Shown here piece after piece: positions 14,090 to 59,794 of a stretch of 59,794 nt of DNA. A program made the translations under genes and the position numbers. The number at the start of each line of letters is the position of its first letter. The stretch's first letter is position 1. Source of the DNA: Bacteroidales bacterium (GTDB taxonomy: Bacteria; Bacteroidota; Bacteroidia; Bacteroidales; UBA10428); contig JAFGOZ010000398.1 in assembly GCA_016926235.1 (NCBI GenBank), positions 1 to 59,794 on the forward strand, given 5' to 3'. The notes below the pieces were generated by a model, which did no database searches, was not told the DNA's origin, and saw only the letters and a program-made list of their open reading frames with translations.

Positions 14090-16873
14090 TTAGCTTCCCG
14101 AAAAGTCAAAAAACAACCTCATAGACTTTGCACGGGCTTTCCAGTAGTCAAAATACATGTTTTTTCTGCCTGATGGCCCCATATTATCAGGTATCTGGGA
14201 TTTGGTGCCTATTGGCGGAATTGCCTGCAGGAAGGACAAGTCGCCTGTTGGGAATGGAGGAGCCGTGTTGAATGATTGCTCCGGAGTTTCCGGTGTAAAC
14301 AGGCGCATAAAAATATCTTCGTCATTGGATACTACTGTGAGTGGCTGACCATTTGTCATAAGTTTCATCCAGTACATCCTTGAATGATAGCCTTTAAACT
14401 CAGGGTATACAAAGTCTTTAACACCTGTAATGGTATTGTTATAGTCTTTATCCCACACTCCCAATGAATTTCCTTTCATGCGGTTTTTCCATACACGATA
14501 AGGGCCATCGCCAAACCATTGCACTGCTTTTACCTCACTTTCGGGAAAGGAGAAGTTAATTCCCATAAAATCAGAAAGGTATTCCTGCGGCCGGTAAGCA
14601 ACATCCAGTTGAACCCATCCGGAGGGAAATATTTTCCATTGCACATACTTAAAATTACTTTCTTTCCCGTATTCATTTTCAATGAGAAGGGAATCGCCAT
14701 CCATGCGATAGTTCATCTTTTGGAAATCAGCTTTGCCATCACATAAAACAGGGCCATTGCCGAGGGGAATAATACCATTGCTGTTCTTGGCCCGCTCCAG
14801 TAATCCGTTGTTTTTATTGAAGGTAATGGTTATTTCATTTACGGAAACTATCAATAAGGAGTCCTTCTCTTCTGTCTGAATTTTACCTTCCCCGTTTTTT
14901 ATTACCACTTGCCCTGCAACATCCCCGGGCAATGATACAGGCCAGCTCCAGGTAAATAGTATATGGTCGAATGCATCCAGGGCAGTTACGTATAATACAT
15001 CGAAGTTCTTCCAATCTTCTGGTAATGTCAGGTTTAAGTATCCCCAGTCGCCGGGTTCGATAGAAGGTGTGGGAATGCCACCTGTTTTGTTGGTCTCTTT
15101 TCTATCCGGGCCGGGACCGGAATATTTTGTTAGTTTCCATTTAAATGTACACTGGTTCATATTGGTGTAGTGGTATCGGTTCTCAATCTTTAGTCTTCCG
15201 TCGAATGCAGGGGTTATTTCTTTCGGTTCAAAATATACCGGGCTCCAGACCTCTTTTACGGTATAGAAACTACCCTCCTTTTCACGGTAGGGGCCAAGTA
15301 TGCCATCTGCGCCATGGTTGCCGTCAGTGTCTATAATGCCATTTTTATCTTTGCGGACCACACCTTCATCAGATAAGTCCCAGAGAAAGCCGCCGGCAGA
15401 GAGGGGCAGATGCCACATAAGTTCCCAGTAGTCGTCGAGGCCGGCGCCATGGCCGCCATCGTATAGGCCGTGCAAGAATTCTGTTGGAAAAACAACTTCA
15501 TGGCCATGGAAGCATGTACCGGCCCCATAGTCATAATTTATGTAATGCTCGGTATTTGTACCCTTAAAGGTCTCCCAGGCTTGTATCACAGGCCGTTTTT
15601 GTATGTCCAGTTTTTCATACAGGGGCAGGAGATCGGGGTTATGGCCTCCTTCGTTACCGTTTACCCACATTACGATGGACGGGTGGTTCATATTGCTGGC
15701 AAGCATCTCGTGTACCAGCTTGGTACCCACTTCGGTATCGTATGCATCGTGCCATCCGGCCAGCTCGTCCAGCACAAACAGGCCCAGGGAGTCGCATACA
15801 TCCAGAAAATGCTTGTCAGGAGGGTAATGGGAATTTCGTACTGCATTCATGTTCATTTCCTTCATCAGTTCCACATCCTTTATACTCAGCTCTTTGCTCA
15901 CAGTACGTCCGGATGAAGGCCAGAAACTGTGGCGACATATACCTTTAAATTTGACCTTTGCTCCATTCACATAGATACCATCACGTTCACGTAACTCAAC
16001 AGTTCGAAAACCAAAGCGTTCGTTTACAACATGGCTTCCCGATGATGTGGTTAGTGTGAACTGAACTGTGTATAGATTGGGAAATTCAGGAGACCAAAGT
16101 TTCGGGTTGCTAACCTTTGTAGCCAGTTGAATTTTTGTATCACCAGCTTTAACAGCTTTTTCAAAAGCATCACCTGTTTTTTGGCCATCGAGGGTGTAAA
16201 TCTGAGCAGTAACTTTTCCGCTGTTTACACTCCCTTTTAATTTAACGTTGGCTGTAAATTCTCCATCGGCCCGGGCATTTAGCTCTAGTCCTTCAATGTA
16301 TTCTTTGGGTGTGGCTTCAAGGTATACAGGCCTGAATATTCCTCCAAATATCCAGTAATCGGCATGCCGTTCAGCCTTGTTTATGGACTCATTGGAGGAA
16401 TGTTTGGCTACACTTACTTCCAACTGGTTGGTTTTACCCACTTTTAATAGATCCGTAATATCATATGTAAACCGATAGAACGCGCCCTGATGCCTTGGCC
16501 CTGCAGGCTGACCATTTATTTTCACTTCTGTGTCGGTCATAGATCCCTCAAAAACGAGGCAAATGATTTTGTTTTGCCAGTTAGAGGGCACTTTGAATGT
16601 ATACTTATACATTCCTGTTTCTTTTCCTCTAACAGTGTCTTTATCCAGGCCATAATTATAGGTACCGAATCCTTCCAGTTCCCAGCAGGACGGTACGGGT
16701 ATTTTTGTCCATCGGCCGGCCTTATTGCCTTGTGTGCAATAAAAATCCCACTCTGTGGTATTGTCATTCCCGGTACCGGACAGGTACATATATTCGGTTT
16801 CCTGTGCTATTAAAGGAGTTGTAAATAGTATAACTGAAGTAAGTATAACAAGGGTTTGGTTTGAGTTTTTCAT
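14090..16873 (-). CDS. GH2-family glycoside hydrolase, beta-galactosidase-like
   Basis: The ATG at 16873 gives 927 residues starting with a signal peptide (cleavage near LIAQ); the frame's earlier ATG at 16897 only adds repeat-derived residues. Domain order is the GH2 one: sugar-binding jelly roll with WTKIPVPSCWE, GMYKYTF and the HADYWIFGGIFRPVYLE block, an Ig-like domain, then a TIM barrel with NSHYPPDKHFLDVCDSLG, the acid/base in NGNEGG (about residue 406) and the probable nucleophile Glu in PTEFLHG (about 464). C-terminal beta domains complete the family length. It would release galactose or glucuronate from pectin side chains in the periplasm. It is the last PUL gene; relics of a similar 3' end lie at 10683 and 12830. 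Confidence 0.88.
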   Translation of the reverse strand: MKNSNQTLVILTSVILFTTPLIAQETEYMYLSGTGNDNTTEWDFYCTQGNKAGRWTKIPVPSCWELEGFGTYNYGLDKDTVRGKETGMYKYTFKVPSNWQNKIICLVFEGSMTDTEVKINGQPAGPRHQGAFYRFTYDITDLLKVGKTNQLEVSVAKHSSNESINKAERHADYWIFGGIFRPVYLEATPKEYIEGLELNARADGEFTANVKLKGSVNSGKVTAQIYTLDGQKTGDAFEKAVKAGDTKIQLATKVSNPKLWSPEFPNLYTVQFTLTTSSGSHVVNERFGFRTVELRERDGIYVNGAKVKFKGICRHSFWPSSGRTVSKELSIKDVELMKEMNMNAVRNSHYPPDKHFLDVCDSLGLFVLDELAGWHDAYDTEVGTKLVHEMLASNMNHPSIVMWVNGNEGGHNPDLLPLYEKLDIQKRPVIQAWETFKGTNTEHYINYDYGAGTCFHGHEVVFPTEFLHGLYDGGHGAGLDDYWELMWHLPLSAGGFLWDLSDEGVVRKDKNGIIDTDGNHGADGILGPYREKEGSFYTVKEVWSPVYFEPKEITPAFDGRLKIENRYHYTNMNQCTFKWKLTKYSGPGPDRKETNKTGGIPTPSIEPGDWGYLNLTLPEDWKNFDVLYVTALDAFDHILFTWSWPVSLPGDVAGQVVIKNGEGKIQTEEKDSLLIVSVNEITITFNKNNGLLERAKNSNGIIPLGNGPVLCDGKADFQKMNYRMDGDSLLIENEYGKESNFKYVQWKIFPSGWVQLDVAYRPQEYLSDFMGINFSFPESEVKAVQWFGDGPYRVWKNRMKGNSLGVWDKDYNNTITGVKDFVYPEFKGYHSRMYWMKLMTNGQPLTVVSNDEDIFMRLFTPETPEQSFNTAPPFPTGDLSFLQAIPPIGTKSQIPDNMGPSGRKNMYFDYWKARAKSMRLFFDFSGS

Positions 16874-16919
16874 AGTATTATTTTGTCTTTTATACATTAT
16901 AATATTTATTATAAAAATT

Positions 16920-17388
16920 GTTCACGCAAAGTCGCAAAGTTGTGCGCAAAGACCGCAAAGATTATAAATTATTTACTATTCTGTGAATATTATCCTTTAG
17001 AATTTTCGAATTAAAGTTAATGATAAGGCCCAATTTTATATCTGAAAGCTTTAAATAGGTTAACAATTGTGAAAAATTCACAGGGGCTAAAGATTCAACC
17101 GATTTTATTTCAAGTATCACCAAATTATTGACTAATAAATCAACTCTATATCCTACTTGTTGTTTAACTTCTTTATATACAAAGGGCATTGGAACTTGCT
17201 GTTTTACATCATACCCAAGTTTCCTCAAATCATAAGCTAAAGCATTTTCATAAGCCGATTCTAATAATCCCGGACCGATATTTTTATGCAGGTCAATAGC
17301 TGCACCTATGATTTTATTTGACAATTCATTTTCATTCATTATCCTTTGCGTCCTTAGCATGTTTTCTCTTTGCGCCCTTTGCGTGAAC
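16920..17388 (-). mobile_element. Candidate GxxExxY unit bounded by inverted GCAAAG repeats
   Basis: The GxxExxY gene is enclosed by the perfect 12-bp inverted repeat GTTCACGCAAAG (16920-16931) and its complement (17377-17388). Inside each end are further direct copies of GCAAAG (TCGCAAAG, GCGCAAAGACCGCAAAG on one side; GGCGCAAAG and GGACGCAAAG on the other, read inward). The unit is ~470 bp and fills the space between a GH2 and a GH78 gene that are otherwise neighbours in the PUL. Mobility is inference; no target duplication was identified. Confidence 0.5.
16962..17339 (-). CDS. GxxExxY protein (PD-(D/E)XK nuclease-like)
   Basis: The start ATG at 17339 (MNENELSN) is chosen because the longer frame to 17360 is encoded by repeat DNA. 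The 125-residue product shows the defining GPGLLESAYE (GxxExxY) near residue 28, then VGYRVDLLVNNLVILEIKSVE with the D...ExK pattern of PD-(D/E)XK nucleases and SQLLTYLKLSDIKLGLIINF, the complete family length. The biochemical role of the family is not established; its fold implies DNA or RNA cleavage or binding. It has no metabolic link to the pectin genes around it and sits between inverted repeats, so it looks inserted. Confidence 0.88.
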   Translation of the reverse strand: MNENELSNKIIGAAIDLHKNIGPGLLESAYENALAYDLRKLGYDVKQQVPMPFVYKEVKQQVGYRVDLLVNNLVILEIKSVESLAPVNFSQLLTYLKLSDIKLGLIINFNSKILKDNIHRIVNNL

Positions 17389-17439: not shown

Positions 17440-20214
17440 TTAGTTATCCACCACCTTAAACTCATAATTCCCCGATCCCACTCCAACAAGGGTATAGCCA
17501 TCTTCAATCCCAACAATTTTGACATCATTGACCTTATTTAAAAGCTTCCCCCCTTCGGTAATTACTTTTTCATTTTCAGTAGGAAGATATACAATAGCCT
17601 TAGTATTTACCGGAATTCCCACTTTTATGGTGGTAAAACCGGACTTCCTCTCCCAGCTACTGACAATTTCACCATAAGGAGACATGAAGCTAGCCTTAGC
17701 ACTGGTAATATCTCCTACAAATGATGGTTTTATTACTGGGTACTTATATGCAATAGAACTATCGGCTTGTTGAATGCCACATAGTCCTTTATAAAACCAC
17801 TCCATGATATGCCCAAGCATCATATGGTTATTGGAAACCACCGGAAGTGCCTGCCAGGACTCTGTAAGTGATGTGGCTCCCTTTCTAATTTGAAATCCAT
17901 AACCGGGAACATCATCCCTGTTATTCATTTCATAGAACAATTGAGATTCCCCTCCAAAAGTTAGCGCTTCAACAAGATAATGAAAGCCTATGTCGCCGGC
18001 AGTTAATGCCTTATCGTTATTTTGGATGGAATCAACCATGTTATGAAGCACTGCTTCTCTATCCTGCTCAGGGACCAATCCCAGGCACAATGGCATGGCC
18101 ATGGAGGTCTGGCTTCCGGTAGCATAGACTTTCCTGTCCGCATCGTAATATTTTTCATTAAAAGCTGCTTTAATCTCTTCGGCCAACTGCATAAAATTGT
18201 CTGCTTCTTCTGATTTTTTCATCAGGCGGGCCATTCGTGACATTAGTATTGCGTCATAATAATAGGTAGCTGTGGCCGTTACACCTTTAGGTGTAAGTTG
18301 AGCAACACCGGGCTTATTCGGGCCTAAATCATACCAATCTCCAAGACCGTAAGAAAGTATGTGATCTTCAGCTCTTGTGCCAAGGTATTGTATATACCTG
18401 GTCATCATGGGCCAAGCTTCCTGCATCACATTTGTATCACCATACCATTTATATATCAGCCATGGAAGAATAATGCCTGCGCTACCCCATTCCGGTGAAT
18501 CCGTAAATCCATACCCAAAATAAACATATTCAGGAGCAGTGCTTGGAATGAGGCCATTGTCTTCTTGAGAATACCCCATGTCCTTAATCATTTTTTGGTA
18601 TATGTTATAAATATCAAAATTATAATGTACCGAGCCTCCCATTAAATAGCTTTGCTCTAGCCATCCCAACTTTTCACGATGAGGACAATCGATCATCATG
18701 CTTTGAGTGTTGCTTTGAATCGCATATAATATCAACCTGCTTACCTTATTGAATAATTCATTGGAACATTTAAAATCTCCTACACGGGGAGTTGAATTAT
18801 AGGTATGCAAATGCTGAATATTTATTATCTCGGGAACGCCATTATTATTCGGTTCACCTGTTGGAACAGCATTTTCTATTTGTACGTAACGAAACCCATA
18901 GAAAGTAAACCAGGGCTGATAAAACTCCTCTTCTTCCCCTTTTAATGTATATTTCCAATAGTACGGGCTTCCGGTTGACTTTTGATTGATCCGGTTATTT
19001 TCGAATAATAACTCTCCCGGTCGTATAGTTATGGTTTGTCCCTTCTTACCTTTTACTTTAACGCGGATAATACCCGCCGCATTTTGTCCAAAGTCGAATG
19101 TAAAGGTATCTTCTGCCAATTTCATAACTGTATCCACCCTGAAAATTTCATTAACTTTAACCGGATGTGTGATTTCTGCTTCCAGCCTGCCATGTGGCGG
19201 CCTTACCAGCAATGCCTCTTTCCAGGAAGAAGCATCGAATGAAGGAATATCCCAGCCAGGTTGTTCCAATGTTGCATCATAATCTTCACCACTATAAATG
19301 CAACTATATGTAATGGGCGAGGGTGATGTTTTCCAACTTGCATCCGAAAGTATACTTTCGTGAGTGCCATCGGTATAAGTTATCTTTAAAACCGCAATCA
19401 TCTTTGGATTGCCGTAGGTCATTAATAACTTCTTATACCTTTCATTATTAATATTGTGAAACCCATTTCCAACCATCACTCCTATAGCATTTTCGCCTGG
19501 CCGGATATAGTCAGTGACATCATATGTATTATATAAACAGGTTTTACTGTAGTCTGTCCAGCCAGGTGAAAGAAAATCATCACTGATCTGATTTCCATTC
19601 ATAAAAGCTTTATATTGGCCCAACCCGGTAATGAAAATCAAGGCAGATTTTACATTTTTAGCAATCGAAAATTCTTTCCGAAATAATGGGACAACAGCCC
19701 TAAGCTCTGCTTTGCCCTTGGCACTGCTAAACCATGGACTAACTCCTGGAACAAGATACAGCGAATCTGCCAATTCTTCATAGCCGATCCATTTTGCCCC
19801 ACTCCAGTCAGTTGAATCAAATAATGCAGTAATAAATGTTCCTGTTTCACTCCATGACGATTCCCCACCTTCCTTATCCCAGATTTTTACTTTCCAGAAA
19901 TATGTTTTGCCTGCTTCCAAAGGCATTCCTTCATAAGGTATTGATAACGACTGATCCGACTCTACCTTTCCACTGTTCCAATGGTTTCCTTCATTCTTAC
20001 GTAAAGTATTCTCCTCATCTGAAACAATAATCTGATAGGCTGTTTGAGACTGGTTTCTTTCTTCGGAAGTCATAATCCAGCTAAACTTAGGTGTTTTACC
20101 AATGCCTGTCGGATTTATTTTCTGATCACATTTTATCTCAGCAATATCAATTGTTCTTGAACATGATAAGCTGATGAAAATTACCGAAGAGAGAAACCAG
20201 ATGTATTTTCTCAT
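17440..20214 (-). CDS. GH78 alpha-L-rhamnosidase, lipoprotein
   Basis: A 924-residue enzyme with a lipoprotein signal peptide (IFISLSCS, lipobox Cys at residue 18). N-terminal Ig-like and jelly-roll domains (FSWIMTSEERNQSQTAYQI; LGQYKAFMNGNQI; DYSKTCLYNTYDVTDYI) precede the (alpha/alpha)6 barrel with DCPHREKLGWLEQ (about residue 506), TDSPEWGSAGI, YGLGDWYDLG and the C-terminal GATSLTESWQ...SNNHMMLGHIMEW, all standard GH78 blocks. The motif differs from the textbook DCPQRDER form found in the second GH78 here, so substrate linkage may differ. It removes terminal L-rhamnose from pectin fragments, probably in the periplasm. DUF3826 precedes it by 18 bp. Confidence 0.9.
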   Translation of the reverse strand: MRKYIWFLSSVIFISLSCSRTIDIAEIKCDQKINPTGIGKTPKFSWIMTSEERNQSQTAYQIIVSDEENTLRKNEGNHWNSGKVESDQSLSIPYEGMPLEAGKTYFWKVKIWDKEGGESSWSETGTFITALFDSTDWSGAKWIGYEELADSLYLVPGVSPWFSSAKGKAELRAVVPLFRKEFSIAKNVKSALIFITGLGQYKAFMNGNQISDDFLSPGWTDYSKTCLYNTYDVTDYIRPGENAIGVMVGNGFHNINNERYKKLLMTYGNPKMIAVLKITYTDGTHESILSDASWKTSPSPITYSCIYSGEDYDATLEQPGWDIPSFDASSWKEALLVRPPHGRLEAEITHPVKVNEIFRVDTVMKLAEDTFTFDFGQNAAGIIRVKVKGKKGQTITIRPGELLFENNRINQKSTGSPYYWKYTLKGEEEEFYQPWFTFYGFRYVQIENAVPTGEPNNNGVPEIINIQHLHTYNSTPRVGDFKCSNELFNKVSRLILYAIQSNTQSMMIDCPHREKLGWLEQSYLMGGSVHYNFDIYNIYQKMIKDMGYSQEDNGLIPSTAPEYVYFGYGFTDSPEWGSAGIILPWLIYKWYGDTNVMQEAWPMMTRYIQYLGTRAEDHILSYGLGDWYDLGPNKPGVAQLTPKGVTATATYYYDAILMSRMARLMKKSEEADNFMQLAEEIKAAFNEKYYDADRKVYATGSQTSMAMPLCLGLVPEQDREAVLHNMVDSIQNNDKALTAGDIGFHYLVEALTFGGESQLFYEMNNRDDVPGYGFQIRKGATSLTESWQALPVVSNNHMMLGHIMEWFYKGLCGIQQADSSIAYKYPVIKPSFVGDITSAKASFMSPYGEIVSSWERKSGFTTIKVGIPVNTKAIVYLPTENEKVITEGGKLLNKVNDVKIVGIEDGYTLVGVGSGNYEFKVVDN

Positions 20215-22940: not shown

Positions 22941-23020
22941 CCGCAGAGGCGCAGAGAAGGCGCAAAGGTCACAGAGTTTATTCTTTGCGGACTCTGTGCA
23001 TTCTTTATGCTCTTTGCGGT
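22941..23020. repeat. GCAAAG/GCAGAG-type repeat cluster
   Basis: Between two PUL genes lies ACCGCAGAGGCGCAGAGAAG, then GCGCAAAGGTCACAGAG and, in inverted orientation, CTTTGCGGACTCTGTGCA and CTCTTTGCGGT. The halves could pair into a long imperfect hairpin. The same repeat family occurs at 16920, 17340, 25372, 41347 and 59591. Confidence 0.7.
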
Positions 23021-25371: not shown

Positions 25372-25412
25372 ACCACAAAGGACGCAGAGAAAAAACGCCG
25401 AGGACGCAGAGA
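25372..25412. repeat. GCAGAG/GCAAAG-type repeat overlapping a gene start region
   Basis: ACCACAAAGGACGCAGAG and GAGGACGCAGAGAC occupy the interval between the sialidase-like gene and the esterase start. They leave the esterase frame open, so an apparent N-terminal extension is encoded by repeat DNA. Confidence 0.65.
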
Positions 25413-41200: not shown

Positions 41201-41473
41201 TCTATTACCTAGTTCATCTGCAATATATACCAACTTGCCCTCTTTGTTCAATGATAATGGTACAGGGCCTTTGGATTGTGAAAAGCTCATACTTTGTGAG
41301 AGTGCTAAAAGAAGCAAAATTATATGCAAATCAGACAGAATTAGTGGTTCACGCAAAGGCCGCAAAACTACCTTCACTACCGATCCTCCATCCAGGAAAG
41401 ACGCAAAGAGCGCAAAGAAGGATTTCTTTGAAGTAGAAGTACTTCGATATGTTTTAGATCGGGTTTTTATCAT
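38207..41473 (-). CDS. Beta-helix plus DUF6298 protein (DUF4955/DUF6298 type) of pectin PULs
   Basis: A 1088-residue exported protein. Residues ~70-560 are a parallel beta-helix of the pectate-lyase-superfamily type: SDATTRIQAAIDYVS, RGAVLLDKGIHEVSGGLRIN, GIVIRGCGMGDNGTVI and RITVNNCKSLSPVSEIGG. Residues ~640-1085 are a TIM-barrel-like domain (DUF6298): VEWWRGDPRPYDRNRVTPH, MKQMGIVAVDYNYGLWYERR, YNHWYWMRLKQFADIADQKG and FISAEFSGPLHFVEFWLD, with several acidic candidates. The signal peptide (LHIILLLLALSQSMSFSQ) starts near residue 50; everything before it is translated repeat DNA (41347-41420) and the real start codon is uncertain. No activity is established. It follows the pectate lyase gene. 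Confidence 0.75.
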   Translation of the reverse strand: MIKTRSKTYRSTSTSKKSFFALFASFLDGGSVVKVVLRPLREPLILSDLHIILLLLALSQSMSFSQSKGPVPLSLNKEGKLVYIADELGNRIPDFSYCGYMASEKIIPDVDVKVIVPCIQSDATTRIQAAIDYVSRLSADENGFRGAVLLDKGIHEVSGGLRINQSGIVIRGCGMGDNGTVILATGKDRRTFITITGKYDREQKSVLEIQEEYVPVNAFQLQLTTNHGLKAGDNILIQRIPNQEWIIKLGMDYFGGETDWLRWKENERITFWDRKVVAVDGNIITIDAPLTCAIEKKYGGGKVIHYTWDGRISQVGIENLRLESEYNKVNPIDEEHCWFAITMDNIQDSWVRQVAFKHFAGSAVALYDGAKRITVNNCKSLSPVSEIGGARRYTFFTEGQQTLFQNCYAEFGYHDFATGFCAAGPNAFVQCESHLPYSFSGAIDSWSTGILFDIMKVDGNNLCYSNRGADDSGAGWCAANSVFWQCSASRIECYKPPTANNWAFGIWAQYAGDGYWHGCNEHVNPGSLFYAQLSDRLGYKIINRVDLMPFETETTSNPSPELAMELTKNSVVPALQLSEWIDQAAERNPISITSKKSTQTIDKIGIPEKAIVSIPSDIKIENGWLTYKESIITGNRHQVEWWRGDPRPYDRNRVTPHITRFVPGRYEMGLTDNIDEVADWMKQMGIVAVDYNYGLWYERRRDDHVRVRRGDGEVWPPFYELPFARSGQGTAWDGLSKYDLTKYNHWYWMRLKQFADIADQKGLVLLHQNYFQHNILEAGAHWADFPWRTANNINNTGFPEPPPYAGDKRIFMAEQFYDISDPQRRELHRLYIRQCLNNFSDNSSVIQFISAEFSGPLHFVEFWLDVIKEWEKETGKEACIALSVSKDVQDAILNDPVRSKIVNVIDIRYWSYREDSTLFAQPGGQNLAPRQYARQVKPGKRSFDQVYRSVREYKDKFPEKAVMYSEGNYTDYAWAAFMAGGSLTSIPKVENEKFLLNAASMRPADLMGQPWMHYVLKNEKEEYIVYNDTYEPVRVILAKALENGYDIYWINPEDGKIMKTLMKQQGGHGITLDKVSDKPEIIWVTEGE
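41347..41420. repeat. GCAAAG-type repeat inside an N-terminal coding region
   Basis: GTTCACGCAAAGGCCGCAAA opens the copy (41347), followed by GACGCAAAGAGCGCAAAG (about 41400-41417). The first 12 bases are identical to the inverted repeat bounding the GxxExxY unit. The repeat is read through by the beta-helix/DUF6298 frame upstream of its signal peptide. Confidence 0.7.
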
Positions 41474-59486: not shown

Positions 59487-59794
59487 TTGCAATATTAAGG
59501 CATATCGATTAGATTTGCAAATTATAATGAGTTAAAATTTATTTTGATCAGGAAAAATTTATTTTTACAGTAAATTAATACAATAAATATTTCACGCAAA
59601 GTCCTCGTGATTTGTTGAATCAAACATCAAATTAGATAATTTTAAGAAAATGCTATTTGAAAAGTCCGGTTCGCGTCCTGGAAATTATATTCCTTCGCAA
59701 AGTTTGGACTAGTGTCATGTCAATACTAAAATGTTACGTATTATTCATCCGATGACTTTTTAGTTGTTTCTTTATATTTGCAATTGATCTCAGA
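59487..59794. other. Upstream intergenic region at the window edge
   Basis: No gene is visible. One GCAAAG-type repeat copy, TTCACGCAAAG, lies at 59591-59601. A TATATTTG at 59773-59780 fits the -7 consensus for a plus-strand gene starting beyond the window, without a convincing -33 box. The minus-strand TATAATTTGC near 59520 is a near match for the regulator's promoter, with one base too many between the halves. Confidence 0.4.

Follow-up and report, generated by a model that had tools for sequence, protein, structure and literature searches.

In the window, by which the whole analysed stretch of 59,794 nucleotides is meant, a GxxExxY gene lies between two inward-facing arrays of the 7-nt unit CGCAAAG, and arrays flanking the gene are the rule for this gene family. 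The unit bounded by the arrays is very probably mobile, and the data are best explained if the PD-(D/E)XK nuclease-like protein that it encodes drives its movement, an explanation for which sequence comparisons give moderate confidence.

The element in the window

The element has a size of about 450 bases and lies between two genes of the same strand:

14090-16897, same strand as the rhamnosidase-like gene: GH2 galactosidase-like gene, flank of the element
16920..16960, + strand: left arm (3' arm relative to the gene), GTTCACGCAAAG and then three further CGCAAAG units
16962..17360, - strand: GxxExxY gene, PD-(D/E)XK nuclease-like (TIGR04256, PF13366), likely true start 17339 (125 aa)
17344..17388, - strand: right arm (5' arm relative to the gene), GTTCACGCAAAGGGCGCAAAG and one inner CGCAAAG
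17440-20214, same strand as the GH2 galactosidase-like gene: rhamnosidase-like gene, flank of the element

A sequence-only reading of the window had described the gene as bounded by perfect 12-bp inverted repeats, with further repeat units inside and a PUL gene on either side, and the anatomy agrees with it on all three points. The GTTCACGCAAAG pair is exact at 16920-16931 (+) and 17377-17388 (-), and seven CGCAAAG copies belong to the element, four in the left arm and three in the right arm. The whole window contains 20 copies, compared with 3.85 expected, and none of 100 shuffles reaches 20. Since the flanks are GH2 galactosidase-like and rhamnosidase-like genes, the PUL-like setting is upheld. 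The family consensus opens with MxENE, suggesting that the true start of the gene is at 17339, and therefore the innermost right-hand unit (17344-17350) falls outside the gene. The stop codon at 16962-16964 starts two bases past the end (16960) of the innermost left-hand CGCAAAG. Given this stop-codon position and the likely start, the arms directly abut the gene. Spacer lengths are unequal between the two arms of this element. No Rfam family matches the window above its gathering score.

Besides the gene-bearing element, the window holds one solitary two-armed palindrome and two half-arrays, together with one end-like copy that may be due to chance:

22941..23019, no strand assigned: solitary two-armed element without a gene, MITE-like, with inverted CGCAGAG/CGCAAAG/CACAGAG units
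25374..25411, + strand: half-array CACAAAG-CGCAGAG-CGCCGAG-CGCAGAG
41347..41417, + strand: half-array, exact GTTCACGCAAAG end and two more CGCAAAG units
59590..59601, + strand: single end-like copy TTTCACGCAAAG with one mismatch, chance possible

The solitary element folds as DNA with a z of -4.7, and none of 200 shuffles folds equally well. Further repeats thus exist, as had been proposed, but the proposed count of five other places does not hold for the exact 12-mer GTTCACGCAAAG, which occurs at only one other place (41347) and, with one mismatch, once more at 59590. When two or fewer mismatches are allowed, the 12-mer is not above chance in the window (6 versus 3.23; 14 of 100 shuffles as high), nor is the degenerate single unit CRCNRAG enriched there (49 versus 48). 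It is the clustering of units, not the number of single units, that stands out in the window.

The GxxExxY protein

The window protein matches only TIGR04256 (E 5.3e-40, 136.4 bits against a cut-off of 35) and PF13366 (E 6e-37, 127 bits against a cut-off of 22), with no match to a recognised transposase family. With Y1 HUH transposase (PF01797) and S23 (PF05635) in the comparison, PF13366 is again the only match at E <=0.001. The GxxExxY motif of this protein reads GPGLLESAY. The PD-(D/E)XK columns in an alignment of 88 family proteins are near-invariant, with E43 present in 99% and D83, E93, K95 and Q107 in 100% of them, and these active-site columns and the two family matches agree with the earlier assignment of the gene as PD-(D/E)XK-like.

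An AlphaFold2 model of the window protein has a pLDDT of 92. The nearest folds by both Foldseek and VIA-align are Cas4/lambda-exonuclease-like, with 4ic1 first in both, and the model also resembles Hjc-type resolvases and restriction enzymes; no clear transposition nuclease is found among the structural matches listed. There is no PDB sequence match to the window protein at E <=1. A known anti-phage defence protein was rejected as a candidate, since PADLOC models give no match to the gene at E <=1.

In one published passage the name GxxExxY is used where a cas4 gene is expected beside a reverse transcriptase, and in another it stands in a viral gene table under the heading of DNA replication, recombination and repair; these two passages report no tested function. 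In an excerpt of PMC12085832, Chrysochromulina parva virus BQ1, which infects an alga, is listed with a GxxExxY gene. Within the open-access literature searched, which leaves subscription papers aside, no report links GxxExxY to repeats or movement.

Arrays flank GxxExxY genes

The statistics on genes and repeats are drawn from the genomes of relatives rather than from the window's own whole genome. A scan of genome contigs gave 54 relatives, labelled Bacteroidetes, Chlorobiota, Ignavibacteria, Neomarinimicrobiota, Chloroflexi, Nitrospinota, Brocadia, Opitutae, Deltaproteobacteria and others. In these 54 loci and the window (55 loci), the density of inward CGCAAAG within the first 250 bp is 6.1/kb upstream and 7.0/kb downstream, compared with 0-0.15/kb in the same orientation and at most 0.27/kb in the other orientation at 1-3 kb off the gene. 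The unit consensus is approximately CRCNRAG, and other members carry the variants CACAGAG, CACAAAG, CGCAGAG, CACGAATT and CGCAGATT.

Removal of 18 genes with stops or odd length from 115 GxxExxY loci left 97, and removal of 9 duplicates left 88 non-redundant intact genes. Of these 88 genes, 78 have two or more copies of a single word, out of 15 tested, within 160 bp; the same holds for 1 of 170 shifted positions and for 3 of 30 loci of four-helix-bundle (S23, PF05635) genes. For 30 loci per family, drawn from close to the top of the score lists, three or more inward C[GA]CN[AG]AG units were found at 26/30 GxxExxY loci, 1/30 four-helix-bundle loci, 0/30 Y1_Tnp loci, which are unoriented so that the higher of both orientations was counted, and 0/60 shifted positions. 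In nine genomes, most of them from other phyla, a broader motif occurs at 19 of 22 loci, compared with 3 of 48 places away from the gene; the locus count includes the loci through which the genomes were selected and was reached by taking 4 fragments from 30 loci, leaving 26, and then 4 loci without 150-bp flanks.

Four loci (L013, L015, L018 and L019) have a GxxExxY gene without an upstream array and a two-armed array directly downstream.

Array word and spacing follow the protein tree

The arrays have diversified together with the proteins, as both array word and spacing follow the protein tree. On the tree of the 88 proteins, the CGC/CAC state (77 rows) changes 9 times, compared with 24.9 times when shuffled, and the unit tail (78 rows) changes 20 times, compared with 30.1; none of 200 shuffles is as low in either case. 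The spacing class (47 rows) changes 8 times, compared with a shuffled mean of 12.4 and a shuffle minimum of 10. The CGC/CAC test is weaker in the Bacteroidota sample (L085-L114) alone, where 27 classified rows give 4 changes against 6.3, with 7 of 200 shuffles as low.

Co-occurrence of the gene and dispersed arrays

The sequence-only reading proposed a statistical association between the gene family and the repeat as its own test. This association is found in a sample of 198 Bacteroidota genomes, 99 with a GxxExxY gene above the family cut-off and 99 without. At least three CGCAAAG array matches are present in 33/99 gene-plus genomes and in 1/99 gene-minus genomes, and the totals are 511 and 28, respectively, compared with 7 and 15 for a backward-pattern control. 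The independent unit CACAGAG reaches at least three matches in 24/99 gene-plus and 1/99 gene-minus genomes, and either unit does so in 46/99 and 2/99. Mean array matches increase with the number of GxxExxY copies, from 0.36 with none to 2.7 with one, 4.7 with two to three and 13.6 with four or more. As counter-evidence, neither exact unit pattern occurs in 26/99 gene-plus genomes, and at least one match occurs in 20/99 gene-minus genomes. Because the genomes are phylogenetically non-independent, as the loci are, P values are only indicative, and common inheritance could inflate both the co-diversification and the co-occurrence.

In six genomes chosen for their many arrays, 94 of the 95 arrays listed lie more than 500 bp from any GxxExxY gene; three of these genomes contribute the first 20 of 53, 78 and 93 places. 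A seventh genome (G002) has one listed match, beside the gene. Therefore, the arrays listed for the six genomes are not merely the GxxExxY gene's own flanks.

Could the arrays be part of a RAYT (TnpA_REP) system, with GxxExxY merely inside a REP-bounded segment? Y1_Tnp genes are common, being above the cut-off in 144/198 genomes, and a passage of PMC6006769 describes a RAYT-related subclass with atypical flanking structures in Bacteroidetes. However, none of the 30 Y1_Tnp loci has three or more units in its flanks, and three or more arrays are found in 4/15 gene-plus genomes without Y1_Tnp and 29/84 with it, compared with 1/61 gene-minus genomes with Y1_Tnp. A RAYT was rejected as the mover on the Y1_Tnp flanks and the genome counts, and this origin of the arrays is very improbable.

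Elements in different surroundings

An all-against-all comparison has shown that the similarity of some elements covers only the gene and the arrays. L028 and L033 have about 486 bp in common with L004/L005, at 84-89% identity and with edges near the arrays, and L005 and L028 belong to one genome. Likewise, L046, L048 and L054, labelled Nitrospinota, Brocadia and Deltaproteobacteria, are 81-88% identical over about 420-466 bp only. The 102 loci represent 84 distinct gene contexts. Differences between L028 and L033 fall 12/5/48 on the three codon positions. The third-position excess in moved pairs indicates that the protein appears to be under purifying selection while the element moves. No copies more than 89% alike in unrelated surroundings were seen in the all-against-all set, which was counted against claiming recent activity.

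The same intergenic site can be filled, empty or occupied by a gene-less derivative. In a Dyadobacter spacer, L186 keeps both ends without the ORF, and L202 has 18 bp only. A Flavobacterium gene spacer was matched in 128 of 131 genomes, and the best 30 loci comprise 9 with a type A GxxExxY gene, 6 with type B, 10 that are empty (20-29 bp), 1 with a 1-bp spacer, 2 remnants and 2 of unclear form. Type A has CACAGAG/CACAAAG arrays, and at least two of its ORFs (L311 and L315) are not intact. Type B has CACGAATT arrays and is 40% identical to type A, as computed with 7 of the 9 type A proteins. One type A genome has a further locus (L301) where CACGAATT-like arrays flank a gene whose product is 52-55% identical to type B. 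In L303, the GxxExxY gene is internally deleted, as read by eye.

Comparison of empty and filled sites had been put forward as a check on the sequence-only reading. Both forms were found in Dyadobacter and Flavobacterium, but exact junctions were not obtained: no base-exact insertion junction was seen at the Dyadobacter site, the Flavobacterium solitary site or the Flavobacterium gene site, and no empty/filled pair was fit to show exact ends or a target-site duplication, the Flavobacterium empty spacers being too diverged for edge alignment. The Flavobacterium spacer loci also include no alignable empty site for a homing-endonuclease test, in which the insertion would interrupt the cleavage site of the enzyme that it encodes. 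A search for an empty form of the L028 site gave the L028 contig, one contig sharing more flank and otherwise other copies or repeated hairpins. A solitary nuclease-like gene with dispersed non-autonomous repeats, as the anatomy had been described, is well supported by co-occurrence, by filled and empty sites and by the occurrence of the block in different surroundings; the earlier interpretation as a whole, in which the protein may spread or process the repeat, is partly supported.

The Dyadobacter operon spacer, which precedes a response-regulator-like gene (L185-L214), is a hotspot that contains GxxExxY elements and a gene-less derivative. Across various species, the same spacer also holds several unrelated short-word arrays, GAATGAGTGAATG, GCTAAAAGCTAAAAG and GTGAGATGTGAGAT. 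Among L303-L309, a terminator-like hairpin, CCTTCGGTGAGCTCGCAAGCTCGGTTC, occurs at several places in two genomes and adjoins GxxExxY elements in two.

Recognition, pairing and orientation

The two arms of an element resemble each other in their units and spacer lengths more than in spacer sequence. At the 55 gene-bearing loci with two adjacent units in both arms, the outermost spacers of the two arms agree in length in 49 (28.4 when shuffled) and in sequence in 5 (2.4 when shuffled). For solitary elements, spacer length is equal in 30/35 (17.3 when shuffled) and spacer sequence in 8/35 (2.8 when shuffled; shuffle maximum 9). Since unit and spacer length match between the arms and sequence mostly does not, recognition by a protein is suggested rather than hairpin pairing, and it is likely that the GxxExxY protein recognises the arrays. 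Equal lengths would likewise arise in neutral spacers if substitutions accumulated faster than insertions. The spacer identity of solitary elements above the shuffled level suggests that pairing or young palindromes have some part. Stem pairing as the main constraint is unsupported, the spacers being mostly non-complementary though the units pair.

GxxExxY genes are co-oriented with co-directional neighbours in 91 of 92 loci (11 were fetched twice; 82 of 83 after subtraction), and four-helix-bundle genes in 26 of 27. Operon genes generally show such orientation, and hence it acts as a constraint rather than as proof. The same orientation bias in both families would fit an RNA-level element resembling the intervening sequences of 23S rRNA, in which, according to a passage of PMC4990558, complementary ends can enclose an S23 ORF. 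In such an element, the arms would pair in the transcript with the ORF in the loop, processing would limit harm, and spread would occur through an RNA intermediate or ectopic recombination. An RNA stem is expected to keep pairing throughout, however, and the mostly non-complementary outermost spacers (5/55 versus 2.4; solitary 8/35 versus 2.8) count against it, making an RNA-level origin distinctly improbable.

Of 30 Flavobacterium loci read (L215-L244), 22 share one solitary array at a constant site between one pair of genes, and a terminator-like hairpin stands in its place in L236 and L241. Its retention at the site and its replacement by a hairpin in two loci suggest that some arrays may serve the host, for example, as terminators. 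This replacement, at 2 of the 30 loci read, would also suit an ordinary housekeeping gene accompanied by chance repeats or terminator hairpins; the unit densities, the shifted and other-family controls, the movement and the co-occurrence all speak against such a gene, and the idea is barely credible.

Four-helix-bundle genes as a parallel

The four-helix-bundle genes correspond to the S23 family, as indicated by the Pfam name of PF05635, 23S_rRNA_IVP. In the set L115-L144 (for example, L123, L128, L137 and L142), these genes lie between inverted arrays built from other short words; in the k-mer and local-alignment tests of these inverted flanks, the edges were off for minus-strand loci. The four-helix bundle was rejected as a carrier of the CRCNRAG repeat, which occurs at 1/30 loci, and it has its own words instead. 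Four-helix-bundle genes are thus a second family of array-bounded single-gene cassettes, and since these cassettes have no nuclease, the inverted-array architecture needs no nuclease. Above all, it is this parallel that calls for caution in regarding the nuclease as the mover.

The occupation of a similar cassette by four-helix-bundle genes with other words raises the possibility that GxxExxY recognises the arrays in order to regulate itself or to serve the host, for instance in processing branched DNA, and that host recombination or another enzyme moves the block, with the gene as a passenger. The protein model points in the same direction: it resembles Cas4/lambda-exonuclease-like nucleases, restriction enzymes and Hjc-type resolvases, and the structural matches listed include no clear transposition nuclease. 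So does insertion, which is nearly always in sense to co-directional neighbours, as for ordinary operon genes. On the other hand, the arrays increase with GxxExxY copy number, and the array word tracks the protein clade within one genus and at one site. Furthermore, the partial rank correlation with CGCAAAG arrays, genome size and the counts of the other two families being controlled, is 0.41 for GxxExxY, and neither Y1_Tnp (0.00) nor the four-helix bundle (-0.09) tracks the arrays when GxxExxY and genome size are held. A passenger role for the gene is therefore unlikely, although it deserves more weight than an RNA-level origin.

A proposed mechanism of movement

Movement driven by the nuclease itself is favoured by the anatomy, the gene-family specificity, the block in different surroundings, the gene-less derivatives, the co-diversification, the co-occurrence, the third-position excess in the ORF and the active-site residues, all of which are observed. 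From these we infer binding of the units, cleavage, a mobilising role of the nuclease and movement of gene-less arrays in trans. The elements would form a widespread family of small mobile elements whose single ORF is a solo PD-(D/E)XK nuclease (GxxExxY) and whose ends are two inward-pointing arrays of 7-nt units with an element-specific period, usually 8, 9 or 10 bp. The protein, which is probably multimeric, would read the units of its own arrays and cut at or near them, or it may cut the target spacer. The element would then enter a new intergenic spacer as one block, either as a copy or by relocation, in most cases between co-directional genes and in sense orientation. Derivatives that have lost the gene but retain both arrays may be moved in trans, giving rise to dispersed solitary arrays, and half-arrays may be decay products.

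A wider and more tentative proposal, somewhat less probable than nuclease-driven movement as such, treats GxxExxY proteins as mobility enzymes of a new class. Small solo PD-(D/E)XK nucleases of this class would read private 7-nt words at a set period in their end arrays, and cutting there would spread their own gene and gene-less arrays across phyla. Word and enzyme would co-diversify as a natural code, and S23 elements would be a parallel class with other words.

The finding places GxxExxY genes in a setting and suggests for them a function that can be tested directly. It explains one group of dispersed repeats, and it provides a natural set of nucleases, each paired with the DNA word that it probably reads. 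With it, a further enzyme superfamily would join the systems of a gene plus dispersed repeats that RAYTs and insertion sequences represent, and an unexplained parallel between GxxExxY and S23 elements comes to light.

Comparison with known systems

The Cas4/lambda-exonuclease-like PD-(D/E)XK nucleases are the nearest folds, and their E, D, ExK and Q/Y residues are kept in GxxExxY. Unlike them, GxxExxY is a core protein of about 125 aa whose gene lies in a mobile unit bounded by arrays. TAACTGA heptamer arrays of Beggiatoaceae, Cyanobacteria and Bacteroidetes, as described in a passage of PMC4679880, are likewise short intergenic heptamer arrays with a patchy spread across phyla. Those arrays, however, are direct repeats of one word, and that passage does not mention a linked nuclease gene.

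The 23S rRNA intervening sequences with an S23 ORF share with GxxExxY elements a size of about 400-500 bp, a small ORF between inverted ends, sense orientation and a sporadic distribution. They differ in that the protein family is another one and that GxxExxY elements lie between protein-coding genes. In GxxExxY elements, the letters of the spacers are mostly non-complementary; the units pair, and the solitary copy in the window folds with a z of -4.7. Insertion sequences and their MITEs resemble GxxExxY elements in their inverted ends, single ORF, gene-less two-armed derivatives and filled and empty sites, whereas the GxxExxY element is without a known transposase and its ends are variable unit arrays, not fixed terminal inverted repeats.

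The resemblance in organisation to REP/REPIN sequences and their RAYTs lies in a solitary repeat-flanked gene, dispersed gene-less copies and a repeat and an enzyme that diversify together. As in REP/RAYT systems, the dispersed solitary two-armed arrays carry the same unit as the gene flanks. The enzyme here, however, is of the PD-(D/E)XK type and not a Y1 HUH transposase, and the ends are arrays of 7-nt units with a period of about 8-10 bp, whereas REPs are short palindromes with GTAG or CGTC tags, according to a passage of PMC3733652. In a further difference from REP/RAYT systems, the gene-bearing GxxExxY unit itself occurs as a block across phyla.
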